From Ascidia mentula (taxonomy: Eukaryota; Chordata; Ascidiacea; Phlebobranchia; Ascidiidae), in NCBI GenBank assembly GCA_947561715.1, contig OX387202.1:3720001-3784000 (forward strand): a stretch of DNA of 64,000 nucleotides. Reading direction: 5' to 3'. The position numbers and the translations under genes are program-made. Below are positions 3,237 to 63,924 of this stretch, in pieces; within the stretch, counting starts at the first letter, position 1; each line of letters opens with the position of its first letter. Under the pieces are notes generated by a model, which saw only the letters and a program-made list of their open reading frames with translations, was not told the origin of the DNA and did not search any database.

Positions 3237-3794
3237 ATGGGAAAGAGTCAAGACACACTGGTACGGAAACAGAAAAAAGAGAAATCTTTCAAATGTTCAT
3301 TTTGTTCAAAATTGTTTACCTTAAAATATAATTTAGTCGAACACGTTCGAATACATACTGGGGAAAAGCCTTTCAGATGTGAAATTTGTGAAAAGTGCTT
3401 CAAAGGCGCAGGTGAAGTCAAGATGCACAGACGAATTCATACTGGAGAGAAACCATACAAGTGCTCATTTTGTTCAAAAAGCTTCTGCTCTAGTGGCGGT
3501 CTAAACAAACACGTCCGAATTCATACCGGAGAGAAACCATACAAGTGCACATTTTGCTTGAAAGCATTCAGAAATAAAGGTCATCTAACCACACACGTCC
3601 GAATTCACACTGGAGAAAAGCCTTTCAGATGTGAAATTTGCGAAAAGTGTTTCAAAAGCGCAGGAGAAATCCAAATGCACAGGCGATTTCATACCGGAGA
3701 GAAACCATACAAGTGCACAATTTGTTCAAAAAGCTTCAGGTCTAGTAGCGGTCTAAACAGACACGTCCGAAAAAATTACTTCGTAATTATTTAA
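3237..3794 (+). CDS. Single-exon C2H2 zinc-finger protein, six fingers
   Basis: The 185-residue ORF holds six tandem C2H2 fingers joined by canonical TGEKP linkers, starting near residue 19; a short basic N-terminus precedes them. The family binds DNA in the nucleus, usually as transcription factors; the target here is unknown. Fingers 2 and 5 are nearly identical and fingers 3 and 6 are very similar, so the array grew by duplication of a three-finger block. The sixth finger is incomplete: after its first histidine (NRHVRK) the protein ends in a short unrelated tail, so its second zinc histidine is missing. No KRAB, SCAN or BTB domain is seen. The ATG at 3237 is the first in frame. Being intronless between repeat arms, it could be a retrocopy or a truncated gene. 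Confidence 0.85.
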   Translation: MGKSQDTLVRKQKKEKSFKCSFCSKLFTLKYNLVEHVRIHTGEKPFRCEICEKCFKGAGEVKMHRRIHTGEKPYKCSFCSKSFCSSGGLNKHVRIHTGEKPYKCTFCLKAFRNKGHLTTHVRIHTGEKPFRCEICEKCFKSAGEIQMHRRFHTGEKPYKCTICSKSFRSSSGLNRHVRKNYFVII

Positions 3795-29100: not shown

Positions 29101-29141
29101 ACGCTGGAGCGTATCCCAGTTACGTCATCACTTATAGATGA
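26128..29141 (+). CDS. Claudin-like four-helix unit fused to coiled coil and PARP14/15-type domain
   Basis: Model: 26128-26233, 26396-26545, 26687-26845, 26975-27046, 27677-28009, 28068-28192, 28459-28648, 28870-29141; all junctions keep frame, about 468 residues. Residues 1-138 form a claudin/PMP22-like unit with four hydrophobic helices (LLLTLSLVFAMTSVILPHW; MLILGILCHFVSVFLF; VFYMIAVAVFGS; LLCIAFALSFCCLFGICGV); its first loop is short and lacks the claudin cysteine pair. Residues ~163-273 are a Gln/Arg/Glu-rich coiled coil. Residues ~274-468 are the catalytic domain: YPDTWSPME lead-in, IERVQNKSLY, LFHGT, GDGVYFA, YPSYVITYR. Claudin topology would put coil and enzyme in the cytosol. The reading frame stays open upstream of the ATG to an acceptor, so an earlier exon may exist. 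Exon 26975-27046 is doubtful: its donor lies in a tRNA-like repeat. AATAAA at about 29165. Confidence 0.82.
27040..27107 (-). repeat. tRNA-derived SINE head or tRNA pseudogene
   Basis: On the minus strand the segment folds as a tRNA lacking the 5' half of the D-arm: acceptor GCTCCTG pairs with CGGGAGC, an anticodon stem TGGGC/GCCCA has a seven-base loop whose triplet would be GGT (Thr), and a perfect T-arm GTGAG-TTCAAAC-CTCAC follows. The truncated D-arm and its intronic location argue for a SINE head, not a working tRNA gene. Confidence 0.6.
27216..27353. mobile_element. Short palindromic MITE (138 bp)
   Basis: Terminal inverted repeats of about 45-50 bp start TAACGCAGTAATATTTCATG at the left and mirror this at the right end (CATGAAATATTACTGCGTTA); the middle is GC-richer. 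It lies in the intron before the coiled-coil exon of the claudin-PARP gene. The TAA/TTA ends could be the target duplication. Confidence 0.8.
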
Positions 29142-32606: not shown

Positions 32607-35600
32607 TCATCGATAAGTGATAATGTAAGTTGGATACGCTCCAGCGTCTTGGAACACAATGTACTTAGTGGGGTTGCTGATGTTGTCAACTGCACTGTGG
32701 TACGGAGCTTCATTCTTGACTGTAGGAAGGAGGCGCATGCCTTCATAACCTAAGCAGTAATGACCAGTAACAACTTCAGCAAAGAGCATTCGGCGAATTC
32801 CATTTTCATCTTCGTGTGCAAATTGATCGGAATAATCAGAAGTTGTTGCAAAGTAAGATCCATCTCCATATGCAGCAGCTGACCAACAAAACAATTGGAA
32901 ATATTATTAATTTAATAACGTTCTAAATAATGAAGTTTAAAACCAACATTTAAAACAAATGACTATTAAACTTTAAATAAAACTTCTGGTAAAACTTAAT
33001 TTACTTTTGCAATCCACCTTCATATGGACAAAGAGTAAATGCGTACACCAAGGAAGATATAAGACAGTTGCTCCCGTGGTGTTTTTTTACTTTCAGATAA
33101 ATAATATGAACAGTGTGTAATTAAATAGAGCCATCAGATATGATAGAGGCAACCTTGAAATAACATTTTGATTTGTAGATTGCGTTATAATTTAGTTACT
33201 TACCGTTTGCACCACTGTAACTTCTGTTAAATCCGTTCTTGCATATACTTTCCAAAGAATCTTTTTTGGTACCGTGAAAAAGTTCCTTTGTAACAGGAAT
33301 GTGCTTTAATCCGTAGCGATAGAGTTGATCTTTCACAAACTTCTTCTGTACTTTAAATTGGGCATACAGCCGCGTGTTTTGAACTCGTTCAATCTGTTGA
33401 GTTAAAGATGTTTTTTTTTTCGAACAACCGCTTTACTTTTTACTTTTGCTTACGGGGATTTACTTTAAATAAAGCCACCACAGTTCACAGTTCACAGGAC
33501 CTTAACAAAACAACTTTCATTACCGTGATGAGTTGTTGAAGGTAAGAACACCTAAACTTGCTTTTCACATCCAAGAACTCCTGGGAATATTCCTCTACCT
33601 TCTCGAACTTTAAATAGTAACCGCTTTTCATTGACGACCAGTTGTGTGGAAACTCTGCTTAAAAAATATAACAAAACGTTTTAAGATATTGCCTCTGGCA
33701 TGAGTGTAATCCACTTACCTGTTGAGTGTCGCAGACTTAGCTGCTGTAACCCTTCTTGTTGCAGGCGCGCCTGTTGTGCTTGTTGCTGTTGATGCTCACG
33801 CTTTATTTTTTCTATTTGCTGTACTTGATGTATTCGTTGTTGTTCTTGTTCCCATTGAAGTTGACGCAGTTGTCGTTCTTGTTCTTCCTGTTTTATTTCT
33901 TGTTCTCGTTGCTTTCGTCGCAGACGTTTTACTTCTTTGTCGTGTTGTAGTTTTTGGTTTTGTTGTTCTTGTAAGAGTTGGTCAATTCCTTCTTCGTATT
34001 CCATTTCTTGAAGATCCAGTTCGATTTGATATTGTTCATGTAAATATGTTTCATTAATTTGTTGTTGTTGTAATTCCCATTGTCTTTGCTGTTCTTCTCT
34101 CTCCCTTTCTTCTTCTTGTCTTCGTCTTTCTCTTTCTTCTCTTCTTTTTTTCTCTTGTTTCTTACGTTGTTTTCTCTCTATCTCTTGTTGTTGTTGTTGC
34201 ATATTTTGTTGTTGGAGCCGTCGTATATCTTCATCTCGTTGTCGTTGTTGTTCTAGGTGATCATTGTCCATTAATCTTTCATCACTTTGATTTTCTGTTT
34301 GCAAGAAGAATGTTATATTAGAGTCCAATTGTAAGTTCAGGTATTTCATTAACTAAACATCACATTATCAAGAAAGTTTAACATTTAGAAACACACTCGG
34401 TATTAAGGCAAATTTATGTCGACGTTTTATTAATAGCTAAGTACGTCGTTGCAGGTGAAATTGCCATACAAAATGTTTGAAAGGCTCATTTCGTAAATTG
34501 CAATTCTTATGGTGCGCAAACTACTATCGAAAATGGCTTGATGATGATTGAATGTCTTCAGAAAAAAACCTGGGTTGACTGGTCCAAGTTTAACAACATT
34601 TTGTGACTTGAAATCATAAACAAATTAACAATGTTATAATATGCGTTGTTGTTGATCTCTCTGTTTTAAAAGAAAAGTAAGACTACCAGCAAGATTTCCT
34701 TTAAATCCACAATAACAAGCAAGGAGGCTTGCAACGAAAGCAATGCAGAGTTGAGTGTAACACGACCCTCTTGAAAAGCCATCACTCCAATCCATTGCCA
34801 GGGGACTACCGAACACAGCAACAGCAATCATATAAAAGATGACTGCAAATAAACATGTAAAATATAACACGTTCGCCGTTTGGTTGAATTGATTTCACAA
34901 ATGCAATTTATAAATCCAGGTGTAAAATTTGACAAGGACCATTACGGATCCAAATTTATGCGCTTGTTACGCTTTTGCTTGCAAATTTATCTGGATTTTC
35001 TCAATAAAGCAAAGAGATCTTAAACAAATACTGTTTGACTTTACAAATAGGTTGGTTATACGTGCGCTTTTCACAGGAAAGTTTGCAAACTCACCAGTTA
35101 ACACATTAGTGACTCTCATTGTTATCAGCGTACATTCGTCCTCACAGCAACAATAAAAGCTAAAAGAGATGAGTGAAATGGACTGGAAAATTATTCCAAT
35201 TATCAACATGGCAGCTGTTGCTTTGCTTGCAGGGTTTTGTTCGCCTGTTGAAACGGAAGGGTTTTGTTCGCCTGTCTAACGGAAGACCATTAGGCTACAT
35301 CCCAAAACATATTTCATTTAGATTTCAAAATACCGAATAATTAAAATACGTTAAAGGTCGCCTCAATAAATACACTGTTTTTTTTAAAATGTTTTGCAAG
35401 TTATTGTGAAGGAACCAACCTCTTGAAAATAGTCCAGTGGCATCAGTAGACCAGTATGGTAAGATTATCGCCGTCATTGCCAGAGTTAGTGACAAAGCCA
35501 TCAACATTCCTGCATATGCGAAATGATTTTCGGAGAATTTATTATGTCCATTGTGTGCTGCAGAATGAAAAACCGTCAAAAATTCTTGTAGCTTAAAACT

Positions 35601-37452
35601 AAGTACGTTATTTGCAAAGTAGCCATTTAGAAGGGAAAAAAGTGTGTCGATGGTTTATTTAAGTTACTATTTGACTTGACAGAAGTTTTTTTAATTTACA
35701 ACTAGTCAGTGCTACCTTCGTCATCTTCCCAAGCACTGCAGATACCAACGAGACAGAAAAAGTAAAAGGCGAATGCAATGCACAGCAGAATATAACTTGA
35801 TCCGCGATTCCATTCATATGCGCCAGAATTTTCTTCTAATCCTTCTAAACCTTTCGAACTTCCAAAAACAGCAACGGCAATCATATAAAATACAACTGAA
35901 AACAAACAGTTTATATTTCTTCTTAGGAATGCCTCCCCCATGCCACGCATAGAAATAATGTGTTTACATTTTGTTTTGTTTCAGGCAAGTAAACAAATAA
36001 CACAGTTTTAACACAGTTTCACAAAACAACAATTAGGAACCCAACGGATCGATGATTGTCCCGAAGGTTCTGCAGCAAAACGTTATGTCATTTTATGTTA
36101 AATTGTGAAATTTACTTACTTCGCGTACGTGCGCATATGATATTTTGGGTCAATCGCTTCGTTTCTATCCGACATATGGGTTAATCTCTGACATATGTGC
36201 AAATCGGCTTTGGGTTTTAATTTCACATCGACATTTTTAATAATCCTCTCGAATTCATTGTTTTATGTAATCTCAATAACCGTATATATTTTGATGGCCG
36301 TAAGCCACAAAAGTACGAAGCGAGAAAACTCACTATGCGAGAGAACGAAGACAAAAAGACAAAAGCAATTGAAACATAACTCTCGTCGCTGCATTTTAAC
36401 GTTGTATGTTGTGAACCAAGGTATGTTTCTTTATCGTTTTCAATTTTGATTAAAAAGTCGCAAAGGCAGTTCTTGGCAGATGTTTTTAATAGTCTTAGGA
36501 GTCAGATAAATGGCGAGTGTTCTCTCTACACACCCGGTCCCTGCAGTTCCACAAAGTGGAAATCTGTGTGCCAGCTAGTTCAAAAGCTAGCGCAGTGCCA
36601 GAGTCAACACCTGCACTGATGAGAGCTTATAGGCCGAAACAGTGTCTAACAGCAGTCTGCAGCTCATAATTCATATCGTGTTTATTTTTCCCCATTGTAA
36701 GCTGAATCAACGGAATGCTTGGAGAGAAATAATCAACAAATCATTTCAAATAATGTGATTCACACACTTTACGAACGATGCTGTTTATATTAAAATGCAA
36801 ATTATATCGTATTGTTTATTAAACTCACTTGCTCCAATTGAAGTGAACAAGTTAACTACCATGACATCCTTTTCTCGACAAAAAACATAACCAATGAACA
36901 GAAACGTAGAAACCAAGTGAAGTATAATTCCAAGTATCACCATACCGGCTATGGCTCTCCTTGCTGGGCTTAACATATCTAAAAAATTAAATATCAAGAT
37001 TTCTAGAGATAAAAAGCTACCTCAAAGCTACATGCATTATGGTACAACAGTATCACATCAATTTGTGGAAGGGAATTGTTGTTATAAAAACTTGTTTTAG
37101 TAAGACACACCGCGATGGCGACGCATTAATTATGATAAGAAGCACATACACTTTTATTTGAAATTAACGTCGGAATTGACCTAGCTTAATTGCTGCTCTA
37201 ACAGATTGTTACGCGGCGCCTTTAAAACACGTTAAACGCCACACCAGGACGAATGAACGTTTGGAAACACTGGGTTAGTAGGTTCTTACGTTTTGGTGCA
37301 GCGCTGCACGTATTATTTCCACAGTAGAGAAACAATCCGAGAAAATTTCCACTCGACGATTCCTCAGCCCAGTGTGGCAAGATAGCACTTGTCATTGCAA
37401 GGACGAGGGCTGAGGTTAGAAATATTCCGGTGAAATATGTTGGTGAATTCAT
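32607..37452 (-). CDS. Double claudin-like (eight-helix) coiled-coil PARP protein
   Basis: Exons in minus order: 37290-37452, 36829-36978, 35716-35895, 35420-35557, 35095-35244, 34687-34842, 33719-34294, 33524-33654, 33204-33393, 32607-32878; every junction keeps frame, giving about 701 residues. Unit 1 (1-164) has claudin hallmarks: W before GLFLYC and a paired cysteine (YCGNNTC), then helices and FYMIAVAVFGS. Unit 2 (165-312) repeats the plan (LTLAMTAIILPYW; FYMIAVAVFGS) without the cysteine pair. Residues 313-504 are a long Gln/Glu/Arg coiled coil. The PARP domain (505-701) shows NWSSMKS, IERVQNTRLY, LFHGT, GDGSYFA and YPTYIITYR, so H-Y-hydrophobic, the mono-ADP-ribosyltransferase pattern. 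Exon 3 reads through its donor into a stop after GSTD, so a stand-alone four-helix isoform is possible. The donor after exon 4 (GTTGGT) is weak. Same architecture as the gene at 54100. Confidence 0.85.
36515..36672. mobile_element. MITE half-copy (12.4-kb family)
   Basis: Contains CCACAAAGTGGAAATCTGTG and, toward the end, CACTGATGAG...GGCCGAAACAGTGT and CTGCAGCTC, matching the outer-arm motifs of the element at 12412. It lies in the intron between the second and third exons of the minus-strand claudin-PARP gene. Confidence 0.65.
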
Positions 37453-43181: not shown

Positions 43182-44648
43182 ATGGAATATATTGCTGTGT
43201 GGGAATCTCGTCGAGCTCATAACAAAGGATGGGAAACTTATGAAGGCGATGTTTGCAACTTACTGGAGAAGGCATTTGAAAACTTCGCCAAAAACCCAAT
43301 GCAAAACAACTTGCTACAAATATCACAAAACCGAACGTTCGATTTCTCAAAAAGTGAAGAAGCCAACAGTTCAACAAGTGAGGCACTTGCATTACTTTAT
43401 ACGTTAGTCCAAGCCTTTTTCTATCAACTTCACACTAGCGACCCACGTGGCAAAATTGGTAATTTCGTAAAACAAATCACAAATGCTTGAAATCGCAATG
43501 GATTGGAGTCTATTTAGTTTTACGTTGCTTGGTGGGAAATTGCTCATTAATCACTTTCCTAATTGACAGGGCGCGTTTACCCTATACGCCGGTTAGAATT
43601 GCCGGGCGAGAGTGCTGTGGCCAAGCAAATAACTTGGAGGTGGGACAGCAGCAATGACAACTCTCTGAATTGGAGACCGTACAGTGCGAACGTTGTGAAC
43701 CTACTTGAGATGAAATTTCAAAACTCGCCAACTGTTGAAATCACCCAAGACTTGACTCAAGTCGATTTTGATTACGTCATTGATTTTCAAAACATGACTC
43801 AGGTAAGAGCGCTGCCCTTCCAGTGTTGCAATAGTGCATGTTTAACAGCACATCATGTTAAACGAGATACAAATGTGCTGGTGCGAGTACCATTATCTTA
43901 GAAATCAACAGATTTTAGGAGGGAGTCCAGTAAGCCTTTGCGAAGAGAAATCTTACAGTTTCACAACAAATAATCACATCCATGCCCCTGGCTGTCAAGC
44001 GCTGACTGCACAACCTCTCATGGGCCAGACATGAGACCGGTCGTCGTCTTGGGCGTATAAACAAGAAGCTTTTCCACTTTACAATTGCTTGACGTCATCA
44101 TTGCAAATACTTTCCAGACAAACAAACAAACAAAAAAACGCCGCCTCATATCACGTGACAAGGTGCAGCATCCGTATCCTCGTGTAACCAAGGTACGAAA
44201 TTTGCTCAAACAAAACAATTTAATTAACATGTTAATTTATTCCTAATATTTTTATTAGTGATCAAATTTAATCAAAATTCTGCAACTGATCACAGCAAAT
44301 ATGTATGGTGTGCTTCTAAACCGTCAATTCGCTGTTCCAACGTCACATGTAGTTTTCAACATGCTCGCGCGGACGCCATTGTAACAAACAAAACACAAAA
44401 TCATTCCACGATTTCTTTTATTGCAAGTGAACGTTCCTTCCCAGGTTCCAACACCAGCTGTTCCCCAGCAAAGACAACAACCATCATCAGAAGATCGAAC
44501 ATGTCGAGTTTGTTTGGATCAACGAGCTGAGATGGCGTTCGTTCCGTGTGGACATCTTTGCTGCTGCCCAAGATGTTGCGCATCTGTGAGAAACACTTGT
44601 CCAATATGCAGGGTCAGATTCACCAACACTGTTCGAATTTATATGTAG
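43182..44648 (+). CDS. WWE-WWE-RING E3 ubiquitin ligase-like protein (copy 2)
   Basis: Exons 43182-43458, 43570-43802, 44118-44192, 44445-44648; frames join to about 262 residues. The start ATG leads directly into a degenerate first WWE (MEYIAVWESRR, GWETYEGD, LLEKAFENF). The second WWE is canonical: ITWRWDSSND, NWRPYSANVVNLLE, YVIDFQNMTQ, then the basic TNKQTKKRRLISRDK. The RING at the C-terminus shows CRVCLD, FVPCGHLCCCPRC, CPIC and ends RIYM; the gap before the last CPIC pair has one more residue than in copy 1. Compared with copy 1 it lacks the proline-rich exon, has an extra intron inside the GRVYPIRR region and lacks the small GHPRQDD exon. Family knowledge: WWE binds ADP-ribose polymers or iso-ADP-ribose, RING transfers ubiquitin. 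Context among PARP genes supports an ADP-ribose-linked role. Confidence 0.87.
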
Positions 44649-49900: not shown

Positions 49901-52037
49901 ATTATCGTTATGTCAACACCCTCTATAATATCAGTATATAATTAATTTGAAAGCTACCAATGACCAAAGAACTAATGTAATATTAGAACACAACTATCCT
50001 GTTGTAGTTTGAACTGTCTATACACACATGGAACTACTTATATCAAAAGCATAGTGTATGTCATCAAAAACAATTCGGTTGATGTTAAGCAGGTAAAGTT
50101 TTTCACTGAAAACATTATGCTAAATGTCCTAAATGCCTGCAGGTTTTTTCATTTCAAATTTTTTGGCCGTTATACATGAACAATTTTTAGCGATCAATAA
50201 CTATAAAGACTGCTGGACATTTTACATATGTATACACATATATATTTTAAACCAAATATAAATACATATACATTCAAACTAATTCTCTACTCAAAAATTA
50301 AGGTTTTAAATCCAAAACTATTTGTCCATAACCAAATTAAGGCATTTTAATATCAAATTGCAGGAAACAAAAAAACAATAAAAAATCATTTGATATGTTC
50401 TAGCCATAAGGTAAAGCTAATAGTTCAACAGCTATGCCGCACAAGAACAAAATTGTGCAACAAAAAAAATAAAGATTCAAAATCTGTCTGCAAAACAATT
50501 TTATGATTAGTAACTTTTGATAAACTGTGGTTCAAACATAGAAGGTTTGAACATGTTGAGTTAGCAGGTACGTAACTCCCTGACCTTTTTTGGACCAATT
50601 GGAATAAAATTTTAAATGTGTGATCATTTGCTAGGTTTCATCTAAATCCAAGAGATAAGAGTTTAGAATGTCGTTTTTTGGTGATTTGAGTCAGAACAAT
50701 TTATTTCACAAATTACTGAAAAAATGGTATATACAAAGCACAGGTGCCTAGTTTTCATTTTTCCAGGGGGGGCGGCTATATTATGATGTCATAATTTGTT
50801 ACTATGATGTCATCAAGTATCGAAAAACTGTTTTTGAATTTCAATGCATAAGGCGTATTAGCCAAAAGGGCGGCATTAAATATGAACACACGAGATCGAC
50901 AAAGTACCTGTTGCTGTTGGCATATTATACTGCGAGACTGACGTTACAACAACCGATGTCAGCTACGCAAGCGAAACTAGGTGAACATATTTTGTGTGCG
51001 TCGTGTAAGAAACACATTGTTTTTAGGTGTTTTTTCATCGAACGTTACGTATGCGACGAGTTACATGGTGTGGGCAGCCGCGCGTAATAGCCACTCGTTT
51101 TTTTTTAAATAGCCACCCCCTGTCCCCCGGACTAGGCGCCTATGATACAAAGACATATCTTACAGGCACAACATTTTTTTTCGATCTGGCAAATATATAT
51201 ATATACCACTTATTTTAAATGAATCGATTTTATTTTGTATATACAAACTTTACTGTGTTTTTACATTTAAGAATGATGCAAATCTTAATACATAAAAAAA
51301 ATATTTACCATGATGCAAATCTCTGAGACTTCTGGAAATTACTGGATAATCCACGACGCACTTAATGGGGCATGAAAACCTTGCAATCTCCCCAGGGACC
51401 ATGGTGCTAACACACAGCTCCCAACATTCCAGCTTGAAGCTTCGTCCAATCAGAAGTTCAAATGGTTTCTCAAACTCCCTCGAATCGTCTATTACACTGC
51501 TTTTATCCTGTAAAACCAATCGAACTATAAAAGCTGTTGGAATTGACTTCAACAAGTAATGCATATGCACATATATACATTTTTAGCCAATCTGTACCTG
51601 AGGCATTGTGACATCAGACCTATTGATGATGTCAAGTGTGAACCCAGATAGGAAAGTTTGTTTTTCGCGCAGATGATGTTTTTCCGCAATCGTAAATTGT
51701 GTGGACAATTGCAACGTTTAATCATATGTCAATGCATTAGCTAATTAATATTGCACAGATTATCGGTAAATTTTCGCAAAAAGTGTGACATTATTTCCAA
51801 TCTGGGCAGGAACCATGAATTATTGTTAACGTTACATGATTTTCAGCAAAAAGCACAAATGTTTACGTTAAATACAATCATAAGTAAATGGAAAATCACT
51901 AATTGTACCTCAGCGGATGGATCGATTGTCCTAAAGTGAAAAGTTGCTTTGGCTCCAGCTTCTATCTTGGGTTTACTTCCATTTCCCTGCTTTACAATCG
52001 TCTTCTTAATTTTGTCTTTTCCAATAACCTCAGCCAT
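46957..52037 (-). CDS. AIP: AH receptor-interacting protein (AIP/XAP2) orthologue
   Basis: Exons in minus order: 51909-52037, 51309-51507, 49121-49242, 48615-48688, 48303-48405, 47690-47836, 46957-47166; all phases agree, giving 327 residues, the family's usual size. Residues 1-~150 are the FKBP-like domain (MAEVIGKDKIKK, ATFHFRT, DDSREFEKPFELLIG, MVPGEIARFSCP). Residues ~165-310 are three TPR motifs (YHEEGNKLFNEGK, LLLNFSQCKLS, NVKALFKRGKAH), and the tail ends in HLKGMFSGF, similar to vertebrate AIP. AIP is a cytosolic Hsp90 co-chaperone that holds the aryl hydrocarbon receptor and other clients; its FKBP-like domain is generally not an active prolyl isomerase. I chose the ATG at 52037 because MAEVI aligns with the vertebrate start; an in-frame ATG lies 10 codons earlier. 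Introns carry MITEs. It appears intact and unrelated to the PARP cluster. Confidence 0.95.
47405..47640. mobile_element. MITE half-copy (12.4-kb family) in an AIP intron
   Basis: Shares GCAGACAG, TACCTAATAAGTCTCATCA, AAGCAAGACTTCACTTTGTG and GGTGACTATACA with the arm of the element at 12412, in the same order. Lies in the last AIP intron. Confidence 0.65.
50743..51143. mobile_element. MITE with GGYGCCTAG termini in an AIP intron
   Basis: Left end GGTGCCTAGTTTTC...CCAGGGGGGG and right end CCCCCGGACTAGGCGCC are inverted copies, both next to a GGCTAT/ATAGCC motif. About 400 bp long, no coding capacity. Confidence 0.6.
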
Positions 52038-52479
52038 CACGACCATTACGCTCGTTCTTGATGTCACTAATTGATTTTATTCAATTTGCTTGCGCCATGC
52101 GGTAAACTGCTTTAAATATAAAATAATTAGTAAAGCAAGCACATTATATGCAGCAAAGTATGGCTTAACGCCATTCTTGTTCGGTTATTTAACTTTGACG
52201 TCATATTAAAGCAGCGACGTTTCAAAAACAATGTTTGTAAAACTCAATGAAAATTTTTTCTGTTTAAGATAAGTCAACACCGACAATAGAACGTAAGTGA
52301 AATGGAACAAACAACAAATCCTTACTACAGTCATTAAGGCAGAATCCAAAATTAATTTTTCGCTAAATCAGTTCTGCATCGTTAGGCACGATTGCACAAG
52401 AAGATTTGACTTATACAATCAAGTTTATTCTGGGTTTATAACATACCAGTAACATTACTTGACAAAACATTTCACTTGC

Positions 52480-54099: not shown

Positions 54100-56975
54100 A
54101 TGGAAAGTCCGAAAAATTTAGTATGGATTGGGTCTTTTCTTACTGTGGCATTAGTCCTGGCGATGACGAGTGCCATTTCTCCCCACTGGGCCGAAGATAG
54201 ATCAACGGGAAATTCTTTTGGATTATTTCGTTACTGCGAAAATAACACCTGCATTGGAGTCCCAAAAAGTATGAAGAAAAAACATTTAAATATTCCCCTA
54301 ACGCTTTGACGTTTCGGTTTCAGGTATGCTCAATTCTGGAAGACAAGCCACAGCAGCCATGCTAGTGATTGGTTTGGTGATACATTTTATGTCATTAATT
54401 GCCTTTGCCTTAAACGCATCGATAGGTTCAAAATCCGCAAAATTGTGTTTCTGCATGTCTGTGGCATCAGGTAATTTTCCGTGTTTAGTAGTTTACAAAA
54501 CCAAAGTGTATTGCAGATAAAATATCTTTTCTCCCAACAAATCGGCAAACAATAAAGTTAACACTGATCTGCTCATTTTATGTTTTAGCTGCGTTTTATC
54601 TAATTGCTGTTGCCATATTTGGAAGTCCGCTTGGACTGGCTGGAAAAATGCAAGGTTGGAAACGCGGATCAAGTTACATTGAACTTGTTTTTGCAATTCT
54701 TGGAATACTTCTTTCTTGTTTCAAACTATGGCGACATATTCCCATCAAGCAGAGTAGGCTATGAATGACCTTGAATGACATTGTCCGACTAAAACATATC
54801 ATTTTCACGATAAACATAATGGCCGATTTGTTAAAAGCAGGGGTTCTTAACCTGGGGTCCATGAACCCCCAAGGGGTGCGAGAAGATGCATTAAGGGGTC
54901 CATGAAACGAAATACAATTATTCCGAAAATCAACGGATTTTCCTCTGTCCATAAGGTTTCGCTGTCCATGAATTTTAATTTTTCGACATTTGCAATGTGT
55001 TTCTTGCAAAGGGGTCCATAGCTTTTCAAAGAATGTTTTAGAGGTTCGTGATCCAAAAAAGGTTAAGAAACATTGGTTTAAAGGATGCTTTCATGCTGAA
55101 GCGATGATTAATTGTAACCTAGGAGTTTCATTTTCTGACAACAGGTCTAAAATAACATCGGGTTAAAAGTAAAGCCTTTATGTCTGATTTTCTTTCGTTG
55201 TTTCAAGAAAAATTTGCAAATTATTTTTTTTAATTTTCCGAGTCACGACAAAATCATGTGATAAAAATTAAAAAAAAAATTGAATTCCCTTTTAAGGTGG
55301 TTCGCAAAAGAGTTTGGCTGTTTCTGGAATAAGCCTGATCACTTCGTTTGTCACGGCGATAATCGGATTGTCACTTCCATACTGGGCTCTCCACAAATCA
55401 TCTCCACAAACACTTGGACTCTTCACCTACTGCAACCAAAGCTATTGCGGGGCAATTCCGAACAGTGAGAACATGTGTCTACAGTAAATTGTCACAATTT
55501 TATTAAATAACCCGGGTACAGATATAGTTGTCCTAGTAGATTTCGCAACACAACCTTCAAACTAAAACTAAAGATGCCTGCGTGCACGTCACAGCCAAAA
55601 ACTCTTTGGGGCGACGGCCTGGGTGCCACGAGAACCCACACTGATTTCGTAATATTTTAAAATGTTGTGTCCTTTTTTTGCTAACTATCTGTGTTTCACG
55701 AAAATGAAAAAAAAAATTCAAAAAAATTTCCATCTATTTTTGTCACTATTTGAGATCAACAACTTGCTTAGCGTTGATGTGTTTGTTTGTAAATTGATTC
55801 CTACACATGTAAATTGTAACATCGTTTTGTAAAAGTAGTGATGAAGCCAAAGTATTCACAACCCCAACTAATGAAAAAAAATCAATTACTTTTTTTAGAC
55901 CTAAGGAGCTCTTCCCGGGATAATACTGCAGCCATGTTACTGATAGCTGTCTTTGTTCAATTTGTTTCAATCATGTTCTTTGTTTACTTCCTCTGGAAAG
56001 AGGTTGAAAGAGCTGGAAATTTTATGAGAATTGCCACACTGGTAGCAAGTAAGTATACGTTAATAAGAGATTCTCATTTTGTTCTGTTGTAGTGCTTTCC
56101 ACTTTGCATCCACTCTGTAATAAATTGTATGCTTGTGGTTGGTAGGTATTAAGGTGGATTTACTTTACGCAATATTAGTTACGAAACTGTGTTACAAATT
56201 TCAGTCAACGCATTTATGTGAAAATGCAGGGCAAATATTAGGGTTCTGAAAAATACATACATATCTTTGAGAGCTGCAGACAGAATGTACACACTGTTTC
56301 GGCCTGTAAGATCTAATCAGTGCAGCTGGTTGACTATGGCACTGTGCTAGATTTTTCACTAGCAGGAACACAGATTTCCACTTTGTGGTACCTTTCGGTC
56401 AATCGTCGAACCGTTGGGAACCAAACCACCGTGGAGCGCAATATGGTCAAACGACTGCTTGGTAATCAATAGTGCTACCGGCTCAGGTTAACCCAATTCA
56501 TAATTCATTATACATACTAATTTCAGACACATGCTTTAAACTACAACACTCCAAGATAATGTGAGGCGCTATTTCTTTTGTAGCTGCGTTTTATATCATC
56601 GCCGTCTCTGTATTTGGGAGGCATAGTGGATTGAATGGATTGCGAGAAGGGAGTTACAACAATTGGAAACGAGGTTCTTGCTACACAGCATTGTGGATCG
56701 CCCTTTTAGCCAGTCTTGTCTCTGCCTACGCCGGATGGAATGCGGATCTTAAAAGTATTTCGGCGTTTTTTAAAAATTATCCATAATTCTTATGTCTCGT
56801 CTCAAAAGCCGACTAAATGATTTATTGCTTACGCAGTTGGTTTCAAAGATGATGAACGATCTAGACTCCTGGAAAATGACCCAGAACAAAGTTACCATCA
56901 AGGAGATATACAAGAACAACACGAACAAGAAAGATACGTAGAGCAAGAACGGGAAAATCAACTACGAAGTGAAGC

Positions 56976-57006
<31 letters not shown>

Positions 57007-58402
57007 AAAGAGCTTCTAAAACAGCAACAATTAAATGAGAAATACTTGCAGAAACAGTATCAAAATCATTTGGATCATCAACAACAACAGCATAAGCAAA
57101 AACTTGCTCAACTTTTACAGGAGCAGCAGAATCTAAAACTACAAAACGAATACGAAGTAAAGCGTCTGCGACGAATTCAAATGGACCAAAAATTAAAAGA
57201 AGAAAAACAACATCTACAAGTTAGACAACAAAAGTTAAAAAAGGAACAACACGATTTGCATCAAAAACAAGAGATCGAGAGAAAAAAGCAAGAAATCGAA
57301 CAACTAGAGGAAAAACTACATCAGCTCAGTCAAGAACAGATAATTAGTAAGTAGATTTTTCCCAACCACAAGTGAATACAACGCTTTTGTTAGATACAAA
57401 CCATGCCACATAGAAATCCCCGATTATTGGTCCCCAATGAAAAGTGGTTACCATTTGAAGTTCGTTCAATTAGACGAAGAATCAATGGAATTTCAACATG
57501 TTGTCAGCAAGTTTAACTGTCGGGACCTCAAGGAAATTATAACGGTAGTGTTTTGTGTGTATTGTTGTGCTTCAGTACTCCACAGTTGTGCAAAAATAGA
57601 TTCATAAATGTTTCACCAACTTAGTAAATAGTGAAGATATTCATGTTTGCCTTCTGTGCGACAGATTGAACGAATTCAAAACACTCGCCTGTATTATCAG
57701 TTCATGATTCAGAAGAAGAGTGTGGAAACCCAACTGCAGAGCCTCGGATTAGAACATATTCCTGTCACCAAAGAGTTATTTCATGGAACCAGAAAACGTC
57801 CAATGCCCCACATCGCCAGAAACGGGTTCGACAGAAGTTTCTGCCGCGAAGACAGTTGAGTGTTTATTGTACTCTGGGATGTTTTTTTCAATACATTGCA
57901 GTATTTTGTAACGTTACATTATTGTTTTTGTTTTGACAAAAAGTTTTGTTAAGCGTTTCTGGGGTGTAAAAAAAAGCTTTTTGAAAAAACAAATTTGAAA
58001 GGCCTTCTGGAGACTGGGTCATGAATCCAAAATTAGGGTTTTACTGGCTTTCCTAACTACCTGCACGTGTTTAAAACTCTTTTTTTGTTCCTGAATTGTG
58101 ACATTTTATTGTGTTTTTCAGAACATGCTTTTGGAGACGGAGTTTACTTCGCACCATCGGCAAATTACTCAAAAAAGTTCTCCTTCATGGATGAATATGG
58201 GATTCGTCGAATGTTTCTTGCTGAGGTTATTACAGGTCATTACTGCAAGGCAAAGAAAAACATGCGTCATCTTCCTATGGTTAAGGACGGTCCTCTCTTT
58301 CACAGCGCTGTAAACAAACTTGTCAATCCAACTGAGTACATTATATTCAATGATGCTGGTGCTTATCCCAACTACATAATAACCTTTATGTTAGACGATT
58401 AG
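54100..58402 (+). CDS. Double claudin-like (eight-helix) coiled-coil PARP protein
   Basis: Exons: 54100-54268, 54324-54470, 54589-54753, 55297-55464, 55899-56048, 56584-56754, 56837-57346, 57414-57544, 57665-57854, 58122-58402; all ten join in frame to about 693 residues. Unit 1 (1-160): LVLAMTSAISPHWAE, GLFRYCENNTC (the claudin W-GLx-C-C signature), MLVIGLVIHFMSLIAF, FYLIAVAIFGS and a fourth helix. Unit 2 (161-323): IGLSLPYWAL, GLFTYCNQSYC, MLLIAVFVQFVSIMFFVYF, FYIIAVSVFG and a last helix. Residues 324-493 form a Gln-rich coiled coil. The PARP domain (~494-693) has DYWSPMKSG, IERIQNTRLY, LFHGT (His ~577), GDGVYFA (Tyr ~609) and YPNYIITF. Lack of the catalytic Glu predicts mono-ADP-ribosylation. 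Even helix number predicts a cytosolic enzyme. Exon 3 runs past its donor to a stop after KQSRL, so a shorter claudin-like isoform could exist. Confidence 0.87.
54838..55075. mobile_element. Non-autonomous hAT-type element
   Basis: Starts CAGGGGTTCTTAACCTGGGG and ends GGTTAAGAAACATTG, imperfect inverted repeats of hAT style, with repeated GGGTCCATGAA motifs inside. It is flanked by near-identical 8-bp copies (GTTAAAAG / GTTTAAAG), the hAT target duplication length. It sits in the intron that joins the two claudin units. Confidence 0.8.
56270..56495. mobile_element. MITE half-copy (12.4-kb family)
   Basis: GCTGCAGACAGAATG, TGTTTCGGCCTGTAAGATCT, AATCAGTGCAGCTGGT and ATTTCCACTTTGTGGT follow the order of one arm of the element at 12412. 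Located in the intron between exons 5 and 6 of the double-claudin PARP gene. Confidence 0.7.
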
Positions 58403-59199
58403 GACAATTACATAGCGCGTTGTAGATTTACATGAAAATTAATGTAGCTAAAATATCCTCTGTCACACTAATTAAATTTTTGAGCAACATCACAATCAGT
58501 TTGTTGCAACATTGTAATCAAATTTTATTATCTCGAACATTATGCGTCAGCATCACAGAAGTTGTAGCCACAGCGAACAAATTGTTTGTCCTGTTCAAGT
58601 TTCATCTGTAATTAGTTTCGCAAGTTTGTTTGAAAATAAAATGCGCTATTTAAAGACTAATAATACGAGGAATTATTGTAATTGTTCGAACGTTTTTGGA
58701 AAATTTAGGGCAAAGAAACGCCACACACCAGGCTGTGTTACATGAAAGAAACATTCACAGTCTTCGATTTATTTGAATTTTCGTTGTGAAAACTTATACA
58801 AACCTACGCTTAACTGTCACGTTGAGGGTTAACTAATCAATCCATAACCCTATATTGAAAATAAAAATTTTATCAAAAATGAAATAAGGAACCGAAGTAT
58901 TCAAAAGCAAGTGGAGGTGTATAAACAATGTAATAGTTGTCAATTGTTTTGTTCTTGTTGCACTCGGGGTTGACCCATGATGTGTAGTTTTACATCTCCC
59001 TCTAATTGTCAAACTGTTGCCGCCGCTGCGACTGATTTAAAATATCAAAGGTGACATTTCACGTATTGTTATTGGCCTGCTTCCATATGATTTTGAGACA
59101 TCATACCGGCAACATGCTGATTTTACAAGCAGGTGTTGAGAGCGAGTGTGCTCCGCTTTGGTTTGCCAGTCTTGTGATCCACAGATTATTAAATAGCAA
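58403..59199. other. Spacer between PARP gene and its decayed copy
   Basis: No gene seen. The 67-codon ORF at 58542 has a few Cys and His residues but no recognised zinc-binding pattern. Confidence 0.4.
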
Positions 59200-61313
59200 A
59201 TGAAAAGTGATTGTCTACCTGTGCTGAGATTGACGAACCTCCCTCAGCCCGCTGTAAACAATATTAGTAATAGGAAAAACTGTGTCACTGTTGGAGACGA
59301 TTTTTTTGCAGATTACATCGATAATAGTAATAATAATATCAAAGAAGATGCAAAGCGTTCTAAACCACAGAAATGCGACCCTAAACATAAGTGCGAACAA
59401 CAAAGAAAACGACAGCATCAACTACAAAGGTACAATCAAGAAGAACTACACAGCACACAATAACATCAACACCAAGAAATAGAATGTAACGTGGCAAAAC
59501 AACGGGAAAATCAACTGCAGCACTTTTCGGAACAACGACAACAAATGAACAAGGAATACTTTCTGATAGAATGTCAACTGCGACGTCAGCAAAGAAAATA
59601 CAACGAACAAAAAAAGGAATTGCAACGCATCCTAAAACGACAACAAGAAGAAGAAATACAACGCAATATTAAACGACAACAAGAAAAAGAAATACAACGC
59701 AATATTAAACGACAACAAGAAAAAGAAATACAACGCAATGTTGAACGACAACAAGAAAAAGAAATACAACGCAATGTTGAACGACAACAAGAAAAAGAAA
59801 TACAACGCAATGTTGAACGACAACAAGAACATGAAATACAACGGAACCTAAAACGACAACAGGAGCGCGAAATACAACGGATTCAAAAACGACAGCAAGA
59901 ACGCGAAACACAACGGATCCAAAAACGACAGCAAGAACGCGAAATACAACGGATTCAAAAACGACAGCAAGAACGCGAAACACAACGGATCCAAAAACGA
60001 CAGCAAGAACGCGAAATACAACGGATTCAAAAACGACAGCAAGAACGCGAAATACAGCGTCTGCTTCAAAAGCTACAGGATCAAAAACAAGTATACAAAG
60101 ACAAGCACAAACGACGAATACAACAACTGCAATTTGAACAAGAAAGCCGACAGTTACAACATGAAATGGACATCGGATGGATAAAGCGCAAACACGAGCA
60201 ACAGCTGGAAAAGTTAGACGAACTAGGTGAGTACATTACACGAATGAATTTGCAAATTATAGAAGCATTTCTTGCAAATAACAAATGCAAATAAAACAGA
60301 AATTCCCGACTATTGGTCCCCAATGAAAAGTGGTTGTCAATTGAAGTTCGTTCAATTAGACGGAGATTTGCAGGAATTTCAACATGTTGTCAGCAAGTTT
60401 AACTGTCGGGGTAACAAAGAAATTCTTAAGGAAAAGCGAGTTGCTGTTTATTCTTTGAACGCGTGTTGGGTTCTTATGCAAACCCGTGACAAGTAACACA
60501 AAGCCAGAGAATGAGAACGGCAAATTATCAGCAATATCGTTGCGTTTAAAGTCAGGCATGCTCTATATTCTCCACTATGGTATCGCATATAAATGCATTC
60601 TAATTTTCTTTCACGATCATCAACACTTTATGTTTAATTTTTTGCGACAGATTGAACGAGTTCAAAACACTCGCCTGTATTATCGGTTCATGATTCAGAA
60701 GAGCGTGGAGACTCAGCTGCAGAGCTTCGGATTAGAACATATTCCTGTCACCAAAGAGTTATTTCATGGAACCAGAAAACGTCCAATGCCCCACATCGCC
60801 AGAAACGGCTTCGACAGAAGTTTCTGCCGCTAAGACAGTTGAGTGTTAAAAAAAAAGTAGAAAAGCCTTCTGGAGACTGGGTCGTGAATCCGAAATTAGG
60901 GTTTCACTGGCTTTTCTAACTACCTACACGTGTTTAAAACTCTTTTTTAGTTCCCGAATTGTGCAATTATAGCCTTTTCCTCCTGTCGCATTTATCTTTT
61001 ATTATTTTTTTCAGAACATGCTTTAGGAGACGGAGTTTACTTCGCACCATCAGCAAATTACTCAAAAAAGTTCTCTTTCATGGATGAATGTCGAATGTTT
61101 CTTGCTGAGGTTATTACAGGTCATTACTGCAAGGCAACGAAAAACATGCGTCATCTTCCCATGGTTAAGGACGGTCCTCCCTTTCACAGCGCTGTCAACA
61201 AACTTGTCAATCCAACTGAATACATTATATTCAATGATGCTGGTGCTTATCCCAACTACATCACAACCTTTAGTTTAGGTGATCTCAGTGACTTGGTTTA
61301 CCGCGAACCTTAA
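59200..61313 (+). pseudogene. Decayed duplicate of a coiled-coil PARP14/15-type gene
   Basis: Exon equivalents: 59200-60226 (coiled coil), 60300-~60430, 60651-60837, 61015-61313. Exons and introns are close copies of those at 57414-58402, for example CTTCTGGAGACTGGGTC in the last intron, so the duplication is young. Lesions: an in-frame TAA at 59461 within the coil (a CAA codon position); loss of the donor after the WSPMK exon (AAG|GAAAAG where the parent has ACG|GTAGTG); a TAA at 60831 where the parent has GAA; a 9-bp deletion removing three residues in DECRMFLAE; one lysine codon lost in IQKSVE; and an altered C-terminus. FHGT, GDGVYFA and YPNYITTF remain. No claudin unit precedes it. A shorter coil-only product from 59491 onward cannot be excluded. 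Confidence 0.75.
59620..60060 (+). repeat. 36-bp in-frame tandem repeat (12-residue unit)
   Basis: About 12 units of RNIKRQQEKEIQ type repeat in frame inside the coiled-coil exon. Early units read RN[IV][KE]RQQEKEIQ, later ones RIQKRQQERE[TI]Q; the T/I alternation gives a 72-bp higher-order period. The alternating charge pattern predicts one long, very polar helix. Confidence 0.92.
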
Positions 61314-62846
<1,533 letters not shown>

Positions 62847-62990
62847 TTTTCAACGTTAACTTTGTTTTTTACGATTTTAACACAGAAATTGCCGATACAC
62901 AAGAAACTTGACATTTATGTCCCCCCAAACAATCATAAATATGTTTTCCAGATATAATAGGAAATATTTTTAAAGTATTTAAGAGTTCCC

Positions 62991-63878
62991 ATGGGTCAAG
63001 CAGCATTAGGATGCGTTACAGCCTTATTTGACTTCATTGCGTGTCTGAATTTTCCCAAACAAGAAGTATTAGTTGATCATTGTTACCAGAGCGAAAAAAA
63101 TGAGACAATTAATCGACATCAACATAAACAATGGGAGAACGAAAAGCAGGAATACCAACGAGAAATTGATGGTTTAAAAAATTGTTTGGCCAAAACACGG
63201 TGGAAAGTATCTGAAGGATTGCGGTTTCGACAAAAAGACAACGAGGTTTTCGGAAAGAACTTGCAACTTTTAAACAGGATTAGGGCATATGAACAAATGC
63301 AAAAGTACGATGAAGAAATTCAATTATCAGCTCAAAAGAATCACCAATATAAGATAGATAAATTGAAAGAAAGCCTTGATAATGAACGAAAGGACTTACA
63401 ACAAATGAAAATGAAAAATCAAACATTGGAAGAAAAACAGGAGGTTGATGAAATAAACTTAAAAAGATTGAATCAAACAGTGATCGATCAACAACAACAA
63501 TATGAAACATGTCTGCAACAACTTATAGGTGAAAAAAATCAGCAGGAACATAGATATCGTATGATGATGGAAAACTTGGATATGATGCTGAATGATCAAA
63601 GACAAACGCTGTGCGCAGTTCAACAAGAACACGAAGTGTTAAAGCAGCAATATGAACAAGAAGTGCTTTTTTTAAGGTTTAAATACGAAGAAGCCGTACA
63701 GTTGCTACAACAACATCGTGAGTTCGTAAATCACCAGATTTTAAAATATTTAGCTCTTCCAAGTTCTTGGCGTCCGATGGAGGGGGATTACCAAGTTGTA
63801 AGTTTGGACGAAGGATCTAATGAATTTGATCGGGTTTCTGTTCAATTTCGTTTGACTTGTCAAAAAAATATCATTAAG
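62991..63878 (+). CDS. Coiled-coil PARP-type gene, 5' part (cut by window end)
   Basis: One long exon encodes about 296 residues and runs into a donor (AAG|GTAAAT). After a hydrophobic N-terminus (MGQAALGCVTALFDFIACL), residues ~35-250 are a long coiled coil rich in Gln, Glu and Lys. The end of the exon is the PARP14/15 lead-in: SSWRPMEGDYQVVSLDEGS, NEFDRVSVQF and NIIK at the donor, exactly where the paralogues continue with IERxQN and the catalytic exons. Here coil and lead-in are in one exon; in paralogues an intron separates them, so an intron was lost or gained. The remaining exons lie beyond the window. The start at 62991 is the first in-frame ATG but an upstream exon is possible. Confidence 0.7.
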
Positions 63879-63924
63879 GTAAATATATAGAGCAGTAAAA
63901 TGTGTTCATAAGTTGTGTTAAATG

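Follow-up and report, generated by a model that had tools for sequence, protein, structure and literature searches.

Claudin-like membrane units joined to a PARP14-type catalytic domain in a candidate gene family of the ascidian Ascidia mentula

Gene A and its neighbours in the window

The window analysed here is a stretch of 64,000 nucleotides of Ascidia mentula (GCA_947561715.1, contig OX387202.1, positions 3,720,001 to 3,784,000), along which all window positions below are counted. On its forward strand gene A (54100-58402) consists of ten exons separated by GT-AG introns throughout, which join without a break, as a sequence-only reading had proposed, into one frame of 693 aa plus stop. The introns are in phase 1 at eight of the nine junctions and in phase 0 at that between exons 8 and 9. 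The encoded order is two four-helix units of the claudin/PMP22 superfamily, a Q-rich linker and a complete catalytic domain of the PARP10/14/15 type. A spliced aligner fed with the protein of gene A itself returned the same exons, which is a consistency check and not independent evidence.

The first claudin unit begins in exon 1 (54100-54268), which carries the ATG, TM1 and the first extracellular loop (W, GLF, C-x4-C) and ends at a GT-AG intron in phase 1. Exon 2 (54324-54470) holds TM2 and the beginning of TM3 as judged by hydropathy, and exon 3 (54589-54753) the remainder of TM3 and TM4, its phase-1 donor lying shortly 5' of an alternative stop after KQSRL. Unit 2 is entered in phase 1 at exon 4 (55297-55464), where the stretch from the upstream stop to TM5 contains no in-frame Met, and continues through exon 5 (55899-56048; TM6 and the beginning of TM7, by hydropathy) and exon 6 (56584-56754; the remainder of TM7, TM8 and a phase-1 donor), which is followed by an intron of 82 nt. 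Exon 7 (56837-57346) encodes a Q/E/L/K-rich linker of 170 codons. The catalytic domain is divided between exon 8 (57414-57544), with its N-terminal part (PDYWSPM...), exon 9 (57665-57854), with the catalytic His (LFHGT), and exon 10 (58122-58402), with GDGVYFA (catalytic Tyr), NPTEYIIF (Glu at the third position) and the stop.

Two further intact genes in the window share this order. Gene B (32607-37452, reverse strand) encodes two claudin units, a linker and a PARP domain in ten exons, which give 681 aa before the stop and have introns in phases 1,1,1,1,1,1,1,0,1. Gene C (26128-29141, forward strand) encodes a single unit, a linker and a PARP domain in seven exons, giving 444 aa before the stop, with introns in phases 1,1,1,1,0,1. 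The boundaries of exons 3-5 of gene B were set by hand, the automatic model differing there with a phase 0 at residue 217, as were claudin exons 1-3 and the linker start of gene C; the agreement in phase at these sites is partly by construction, because they were chosen to keep phase 1. A degenerate tandem copy of the linker and PARP part of gene A lies at 59197-61313 on the forward strand, interrupted by stops at 59461-59463 and where its equivalent of exon 9 ends, and no claudin unit was found in it. Gene D (7319-9057, reverse strand) is of the PARP14 type and belongs to the claudin-bearing side of the tree described below; it has a coil, and no claudin unit was found upstream of it in the window. 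The claudin-linker-PARP order is real in gene A; since it recurs in the two intact genes, and claudin exon matches precede PARP exons in nine other loci, a chance joining of open frames is rejected.

Membrane units, linker and catalytic domain

Hydropathy analysis gives eight TM-like segments in gene A, in keeping with the eight helices first read from the sequence, eight in gene B and four in gene C. The loops of gene A contain glycosylation sequons at residues 48 and 207. On the full gene A model both PMP22_Claudin (PF00822, 31.1 bits, cut-off 26.7) and PARP (PF00644, 52.1 bits, cut-off 26.7) exceed their Pfam thresholds, as does L_HMGIC_fpl (PF10242, 29.1 bits, cut-off 25.2). Scored singly, the two claudin units of gene A fall below the cut-offs (22.9 bits to PF00822 for unit 2, unit 1 being unlisted). 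The whole protein of gene B reaches 37.7 bits with PF00822 (cut-off 26.7), a search of gene C at E up to 0.01 returned no claudin match, and PF00822 is matched at E<=0.01 by 8 of 14 claudin units. The claudin signature is a W-GLW/GLF-C-C loop with an Arg ahead of TM2, and W, GLF, C, C and R are invariant in all 14 units of our claudin-unit alignment, both gene A units among them; the loop cysteines are absent from unit 2 of gene B and from the gene C unit, neither of which is in that alignment. Against the PDB, the claudin-unit profile matches best LHFPL5 (1.5e-4) and then MOSMO (1.6e-3). The earlier description of the units as claudin/PMP22-like thus stands at the level of the superfamily, whereas among proteins of solved structure the profile places them nearest to LHFPL5 and MOSMO; a classical claudin identity is rejected on the cysteine spacing together with these best matches.

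In a protein database, residues 1-340 of gene A found no relative at E 0.001 among a capped set of 7,998 candidates (length 0.55-1.75 times 693 aa), and the claudin-unit alignment none at E 0.01 among 7,419 candidates, in searches whose sensitivity is restricted to shared short words. The database includes tunicate proteins (Clavelina lepadiformis), and therefore these misses for the claudin part have some weight. As the number of helices is even, the PARP domain would lie in the cytosol, and it is on that side of the membrane that we infer it to be placed in gene A.

The Q-rich linker is probably helical. The first in-frame Met of the linker exon is residue 116 in gene A and residue 18 in gene B, and there is none in gene C. 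In the part of the gene A linker ahead of that Met, frame 0 has no stops and a pN/pS of 0.49 in the comparison of A with B (Fisher 6.5e-7), the other two frames containing 6 and 11 stops with ratios of 1.34 and 1.70. Such constraint ahead of the first Met implies that the linker is translated from upstream, and the sequence argues against coding that starts at the coil exon.

The PARP exons of gene A on their own raise the PF00644 score to 64.3 bits, and a profile built from 11 PARP domains of the family matches PARP14 (4.2e-44), PARP15 (2.3e-43), PARP12 (1.2e-41) and PARP10 (1.7e-41) ahead of tankyrase-2 (3.1e-15) and PARP1 (6.8e-5), PARP16 being absent among the best 60 of its 88 matches. 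The domain is complete, as had been claimed, with PARP14 as its best profile match, and by this match it is assigned to the PARP10/14/15 type (Clade 3). Macro or WWE domains are common N-terminal parts of Clade 3 PARPs, if not of all members; Pfam searches gave no match to either in gene A (E up to 10) or in genes B and C (E up to 0.01). The catalytic His and Tyr are invariant in the 11 aligned domains. At the third catalytic position Glu occurs in 3 of 54 rows, namely gene A, its degenerate copy and locus C70_3858; the others have Ile (33), Lys (5, including genes B and C), Met (5), Gln (3), Leu (3), Val (1) or Ser (1). Mono-transferase PARPs have Ile, Leu, Tyr or Val at this position, a set to which the Glu of gene A does not belong. 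The PARP14/15-type domain initially read is borne out by the sequence, but because of this Glu the term mono is uncertain for gene A.

Distribution, module phases and selection

Two genome queries, once their matches were clustered, define 57 PARP14-type loci; PF00644 matches missed by both, such as those around 10.7 and 12.5 Mb of C73, were set aside as PARPs of other types without phylogenetic analysis. Claudin exons lie upstream on the same strand in 12 of the 57, spread over three chromosomes, and were not found there in the remaining 45. Gene A is thus not isolated, being one member of a multi-gene family. Beyond genes A, B and C, nine loci have claudin exon matches that precede the PARP exons in the same orientation, although C1 4412 has a single such match and C2 7188 three; by a crude length estimate the chance of such a placement is about 0.12% per claudin match. 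All other loci were modelled automatically, and their models are of poor quality in the linker, where several read through stops.

In a tree of the PARP domains of 54 of the 57 loci (the small fragments C1 3777334, 3817816 and 4403818 were left out), a branch with 99/97 support separates 23 rows, which include all 12 claudin-bearing loci, from 31 rows with none. The claudin label changes 5 times on this tree, against a mean of 11.1 when labels are shuffled, and 0 of 500 shuffles were as low. In a tree of the claudin units, from which C70 3858 unit 2 and C2 7188 unit 1 were omitted, the units cluster mostly by position in the protein and not by locus (label changes 3, shuffled means 7.7 and 7.6, 0 of 500 shuffles as low); the two units of C2 7214 pair together (89/81). 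On C70 there are also two double claudins, at 3786668-3788456 and 3851213-3853093, with no PARP found downstream in the stretch examined, and the single unit of C1 4413 is a bad fit (score 181) with an internal stop.

The intron phases of gene A recur in the automatic models of 13 other loci. Of the 13, phase 1 was placed in 12 at residue 267, in 11 at residue 601, in 10 each at residues 57 and 217 and in 9 at residue 106, and phase 0 in 8 at residue 538; nearly all of the remaining placements at these six residues are cases in which no intron was placed. Residue 161 is in phase 1 in four loci, in phase 2 in one and without an intron in eight. Because the linkers diverge, only 3 of the 13 models have an intron at residue 324, where claudin and linker meet, each time in phase 1. 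The claudin units behave as phase-1 modules, a feature that is new beyond the fusion itself, as is the Glu at the third catalytic position of gene A.

Claudin, linker and PARP parts are under purifying selection. Between genes A and B dN/dS is 0.19 for unit 1, 0.20 for unit 2, 0.23 for the linker and 0.18 for the PARP part (rough values, at dS of 1.6 to 3.1), and for the claudin exons of gene A and the C70 3787 locus it is 0.40 at a dS of 0.71. Constraint is weak in young claudin pairs (0.47, 0.79 and 0.79, with unit 1 of 3787/3851 alone at 1.41), and the PARP exons of gene A and C70 3858 give 0.59.

Proposed mechanism, alternatives and comparison with known systems

Taken together, we consider it likely that gene A is a true fusion and belongs to a family of such genes, and that its product is most probably a membrane-anchored ADP-ribosyltransferase. 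Read from a single transcript, two tandem claudin-superfamily modules (eight helices) with both ends in the cytosol would hold the PARP domain against a membrane on its cytosolic side, where the enzyme, possibly clustered by the linker, may modify targets near the membrane. The membrane might be that of a junction or a vesicle, as initially proposed. The modules are symmetric phase-1 sets of exons and therefore can be duplicated, dropped and recombined with the frame kept; they may have been gained, most simply once, by the ancestor of one PARP group, later copies having lost or exchanged them. PARP14-type ADP-ribosyltransferases act in antiviral defence and the vertebrate antiviral PARPs show fast family turnover; because this family turns over fast as well, the enzyme may perhaps have a defence role. 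A more elaborate version of the proposal, which we regard as unlikely, is that of a lineage-specific family of membrane receptor-enzymes, in which the extracellular claudin-type loops would recognise a pathogen, a neighbouring cell or a symbiont, clustering by the linker would activate the cytosolic ADP-ribosyltransferase, the modules would be reshuffled between loci in the manner of an immune repertoire, and one branch (gene A and C70_3858) would have gained an H-Y-E triad that could allow chain formation.

Whether the claudin and PARP parts belong to one protein can be questioned in two ways. They might be two cistrons that share a pre-mRNA and are parted by spliced-leader trans-splicing, so that the joined model would be an artefact: in Ciona, 2,909 genes are reported in 1,310 candidate operons, whose members abut directly and are often wrongly fused by programs (PMC2760879). 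The gap of just 82 nt between exons 6 and 7 of gene A, a read-through from exon 6 that reaches a stop at 56784-56786, and an in-frame Met upstream of unit 2 in 4 of 11 loci (3791, 3858, 6518 and 4387) would fit such an arrangement. However, the 82-nt stretch contains neither AATAAA nor ATTAAA, in the other 7 of these 11 loci, A and B included, the stretch from the upstream stop to the first helix of unit 2 lacks an in-frame Met, and the late or missing Met in the linker exons of A and C, together with the frame-0 constraint that precedes it in A, argues against an operon; the out-of-frame ATGs found early in the linker exons of A and C would moreover hinder starts further down. We consequently hold the operon to be very unlikely. 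The other way, alternative isoforms, would yield from the same locus proteins made of claudin alone that stop after KQSRL, and PARP proteins that lack some or all of the units, the full fusion being a minor product. An in-frame stop does lie directly 3' of the exon 3 donor, double-claudin loci without a PARP found exist, and all introns of the claudin region of gene A are in phase 1, so that skipping of whole exons keeps the frame; yet both units are constrained in the comparison of A with B, and unit 2 of A and of B has no start of its own, which makes a mainly unfused output quite improbable.

The constraint bears also on the idea that gene A is a recent product of shuffling, decaying under no constraint. 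The degenerate copy adjoining it, the apparently broken unit 2 exon of C70 3858 and the ratio of 0.59 for the PARP exons against that locus would suit decay, whereas the ten exons of gene A are intact without internal stop and comparisons with distant paralogues give each of its parts a dN/dS far under 1, so that we find decay extremely improbable. On the preferred reading of a membrane-anchored enzyme, the combination of claudin and PARP in a gene family suggests an unusual way to fix an ADP-ribosylating enzyme to a membrane; to our knowledge membrane tethering of PARP14-type transferases has hardly been described. The replicated architecture, if true, would be a new route for placing ADP-ribosylation chemistry at the membrane, a clear chordate example of phase-1 module shuffling and, with the 57 PARP14-type loci obtained by clustering, evidence of a large expansion of PARPs in an invertebrate related to the vertebrates. 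Directly testable through it are the notions that junction-type modules carry signalling enzymes and that an H-Y-E triad in a PARP14-type domain permits polymerisation.

With the claudin/PMP22/LHFPL/MOSMO superfamily the units share four helices and the W-GLF-C-C-R pattern, but they have only four residues between the loop cysteines, and the fusion proteins combine tandem units with an attached enzyme. PARP16 is a tail-anchored membrane PARP with its enzyme in the cytosol, the side predicted for gene A. In contrast to it, gene A has eight N-terminal TM-like segments and a domain matching PARP10/12/14/15. PARP16 belongs to Clade 6 and has a C-terminal TM region (PMC4245714). The initial reading knew of no claudin-PARP fusion. 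No claudin-PARP protein was found in titles and abstract beginnings from searches of open-licence PMC papers, which is not proof of absence, and the word claudin is absent from the main text of two evolution papers (PMC4245714, PMC2964712). A membrane PARP of Clade 3 has some precedent, since one is reported from the sponge A. queenslandica; there too a transmembrane part precedes the PARP domain, but it is described just as an N-terminal transmembrane domain (PMC4245714). Tunicate relatives of the catalytic domain are four PARP14-like proteins of Clavelina lepadiformis, among seven proteins found, with 35-42% identity; a precomputed Pfam list gives no claudin family for any of the seven and, unlike in the fusion genes, macro domains for three of the four. 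In PARP10, PARP14 and PARP15 the non-catalytic parts are macro, WWE, KH or RRM domains. The family profile matches PARP14 and PARP15 over nearly the full length of the catalytic domain, with His and Tyr kept; the fusion has claudin units and a Q-rich linker in place of those parts, and the third catalytic residue of gene A is Glu where theirs is Leu or Ile.

Architecture of gene A and of its relatives in the window

Ten exons, all with GT-AG sites, were joined in gene A (54100-58402, + strand) to an open frame of 693 codons followed by a stop, as the sequence-only reading had proposed. That reading saw two claudin-like units, a Gln-rich coil and a PARP domain in the frame and proposed a mono-ADP-ribosyltransferase anchored to a membrane. 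Its claim that claudin-like units and a PARP domain share this frame was borne out by Pfam, where PARP (52.1 bits in the whole protein, 64.3 for the isolated domain) and PMP22_Claudin (31.1 bits) both exceed their cut-offs, 26.7 in either case, in the whole gene A model, both claudin units being under the cut-offs when taken one by one. The eight helices that it had counted were found again by hydropathy as eight TM-like segments. Eight of the nine introns are in phase 1; the exception is a phase-0 intron that interrupts the PARP domain. One glycosylation sequon per unit of gene A (residues 48 and 207) lies between the loop cysteines, which is compatible with an outside position of the loop, and two further sequons (87 and 615) lie within parts predicted inside.

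The analysis of 14 aligned units reveals a tryptophan, GLF, two cysteines and an arginine common to all of them, the loop pattern of the claudin superfamily (W-GLF-C-C-R). Among solved structures the unit profile matched LHFPL5 (1.5e-4) and MOSMO (1.6e-3) best and then LHFPL4 (0.045); CACNG1 was weak (0.29), ranked under ribosomal L32 chains (0.049 and on) that were dismissed as noise. The membrane unit is accordingly termed claudin-superfamily here rather than claudin.

For a profile of 11 family PARP domains the best solved structure was PARP14 (4.2e-44), followed by PARP15, PARP12 and PARP10. The catalytic His (in LFHG) and Tyr (in GxYF) are conserved without exception in the 11 aligned domains, and the third catalytic position is occupied, in 54 rows, by Ile (33), Lys (5), Met (5), Gln (3), Leu (3), Glu (3), Val (1) and Ser (1). 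Lys is found in genes B and C and at the paralogous loci C2_7188, C1_3763 and C1_3718. Glu is found in one small branch of the PARP tree (3 of the 54 rows), formed by gene A (NPTEYIIF; codon 58334-58336, + strand, exon 10), its degenerate tandem copy and the C70_3858 locus. Chain-forming PARPs have the triad H-Y-E, the presence of which is no proof of chain formation. The tandem copy (59197-61313, +) duplicates the linker and PARP parts of gene A; it contains long, nearly identical Q/E/R repeats and is interrupted by in-frame stops.

Gene B (32607-37452, - strand; ten exons, 681 residues) and gene C (26128-29141, + strand; seven exons, one claudin unit, 444 residues) are both intact, no internal stop preceding their own stop codons. 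Splice sites of exons 3-5 of gene B, and of exons 1-3 and the linker start of gene C, were placed by hand by choosing phase-1 sites, and the automatic model disagreed with them. Gene B exceeds the Pfam cut-off for PMP22_Claudin (37.7 bits; best stretch, unit 1), and is 52% identical to gene A over the aligned codons of unit 1, 36% over those of unit 2, 41% over the linker and 57% over exons 8-10. The loop is shortened and the cysteine pair absent in both unit 2 of gene B and the unit of gene C. Over exons 2 and 3 the latter matches unit 1 of gene B (60%) better than unit 2 (47%); gene C looks like the product of a unit loss.

Other features were observed in the window. A long coiled open frame (62961-63890, +) ends in a PARP exon-8-like stretch (LPSSWRPM...), its catalytic exons lying just beyond the window (C70:3784101-3784620), and the genome search found no claudin exon match at this locus. 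Exons of an AIP-like FKBP protein lie at about 51330-52061 (-; PF23322, 54.4 bits for a hand-joined piece) and a C2H2 zinc-finger exon at 3222-3794 (+). Two open frames at 22688-23350 (+) and 43563-43901 (+) are similar to each other by eye, the former containing a WWE domain (39.4 bits), which occurs in ADP-ribosylation proteins.

One gene or two spliced-leader cistrons

Spliced-leader operons occur in ascidians and often lead to wrongly fused gene models in Ciona (PMC2760879, in excerpt). For this reason we considered whether the claudin units and the linker-PARP part are separate cistrons and the joined model a wrong fusion, which we regard as improbable. An in-frame Met follows the upstream stop in the first exon of unit 1 at all 12 loci tested. 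Unit 2 is likewise preceded by an in-frame Met at four of 11 loci (3791, 3858, 6518 and 4387), as separate cistrons would allow; however, at the other seven, genes A and B among them, there is none between the upstream stop and the first helix. Moreover, the last claudin unit of each of the three genes (unit 2 in A and B, the only unit in C) closes with a phase-1 donor. The first in-frame Met of the linker exon stands at residue 116 in gene A and 18 in gene B, and is missing in gene C, whereas the linker ahead of gene A's first Met is constrained between A and B (pN/pS 0.49, Fisher 6.5e-7) and free of stops in frame, the other two frames having 6 and 11 stops and ratios of 1.34 and 1.70. The frame is similarly constrained between B and C (pN/pS 0.57, p 0.0037) and between A and C (0.50, p 3.8e-6). 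The linker is rich in Gln, which may accentuate the ratios; given the frame controls, composition by itself is an unlikely cause. A stretch that codes ahead of any start codon has to be joined to some upstream exon, the nearest in gene A being claudin exon 6, 82 nt off; an unseen first exon of non-claudin type is a possible partner instead.

The joined gene was further compared by automatic alignment of the gene A protein to 13 other loci. This put phase-1 introns at residues 57 (10 loci), 106 (9), 217 (10), 267 (12) and 601 (11), and a phase-0 intron at residue 538 (8); at these six positions the remaining loci had no intron placed, apart from gene B, with phase 0 at 217. Residue 494 gave phase 1 in three loci and phase 0 in one. 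At the junction of the units (residue 161) phase 1 was placed in four loci, phase 2 in one and no intron in eight, and at the claudin-linker junction (residue 324) phase 1 in three and none in ten. Thus, the exon patterns of the claudin and PARP parts recur well across the loci, and the linker junction was recovered independently at few of them.

Spread, possible module exchange and selection

The search covered 195.8 Mb in 79 contigs; the kaAscMent1.1 assembly is given as 197.0 Mb in 95 scaffolds in the excerpted text of PMC11109543, and the window lies on its chromosome 6 at 3,720,001-3,784,000. Three single-unit queries (E up to 1, own locus counted in each) gave 41, 58 and 63 claudin exon matches, of which 30, 44 and 43 had a same-strand PARP exon within 8 kb downstream, against a chance expectation, by a crude length estimate, of about 0.12% per match. 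Matches without a downstream PARP (C70 3786-3788, 3851-3853 and 3869.8; C1 4377-4379 and 4352-4359) are all in or near PARP clusters, and one query gave two weak matches away from them, on C71 and C67. PARP matches cluster into 57 loci, 12 with upstream claudin exon matches (1 to 6 each); at the other 45, mostly covered by genome search only, in which diverged units may escape, no upstream claudin exon was found.

In a PARP tree of 54 of these loci, rooted at the midpoint only, a branch with 99/97 support divides the rows into 23, comprising all 12 claudin-bearing loci and 11 rows without claudins, and 31, none of them claudin-bearing. The claudin label needs five changes, of which well-supported branches force three or more; a single gain followed by losses would fit this, and is not proven. 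Unit gain or loss is made possible by the phase-1 symmetry. Gene D (7319-9057, -), PARP14-type with a coil, lies on the claudin-bearing side; no claudin unit was found at its locus, and it is likely a case of claudin loss.

The tree of 24 claudin units has a weak backbone and pairs both units of C2 7214 together, with units 1 and 2 mostly grouped by position (3 label changes, where shuffling gave means of 7.7 and 7.6 and never so low a value in 500 trials), so that the tandem pair probably predates the spread of the loci. The claudin part of gene A is closest in this tree to the C70 3787 and 3851 loci, and its PARP part is closest in the PARP tree to its own tandem copy and C70 3858; these differing relatives suggest that modules were exchanged between loci. 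The former two are double-claudin loci (C70:3786668-3788456 and 3851213-3853093, +), in which, by eye, unit 2 is followed by a GT donor; no PARP was found downstream within the stretch examined. The C70 3858 locus (3858362-3861766, -) combines a PARP part near that of gene A with a unit 1 almost identical to its counterpart at 3791, and one exon of its unit 2 is apparently broken, a sign of exchange and decay. At the 3791 locus itself (C70:3791365-3798762, -) the automatic model separates two claudin units from the PARP exons by a run of about 150 Gln codons, of unsure exon status.

Between A and B, dN/dS is 0.19 for unit 1 and 0.20 for unit 2 (dS 2.3 and 3.1, hence rough), and 0.18 for PARP exons 8-10. 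The claudin part of gene A against the 3787 locus gives 0.40 (dS 0.71). Younger claudin pairs show weaker constraint (0.79 for 3787/3851, 0.79 for 4380/4387 and 0.47 for 3791/3858), 3787/3851 unit 1 by itself reaching 1.41; the pair 4370/4380 is at 0.40. PARP exons 9-10 range from 0.21 to 0.59 in six pairs.

Possible role and known membrane PARPs

At the level of sequence, these data demonstrate a repeated gene structure in which membrane modules and a linker are combined with an intact-looking ADP-ribosyltransferase domain under selection. The claudin units would anchor the enzyme to the plasma membrane, to a junctional membrane or to that of a vesicle, on the cytosolic side because the number of helices is even; the linker may cluster it, and its targets would lie close to the membrane. 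In its size, its tandem arrangement and its degenerate copies the family is reminiscent of defence gene families, by analogy only.

To our knowledge, the membrane PARPs described are PARP16 and a sponge Clade 3 PARP, and a text search of open-licence literature, covering titles and the openings of abstracts, found no claudin-PARP protein. The transmembrane segment is C-terminal in PARP16 and N-terminal in the sponge protein, according to the excerpt of PMC4245714. The tunicate PARP14-like database proteins found come from Clavelina, and three of four have PARP and macro domains in a precomputed Pfam list; the present family is PARP14-type with a membrane module new to it.
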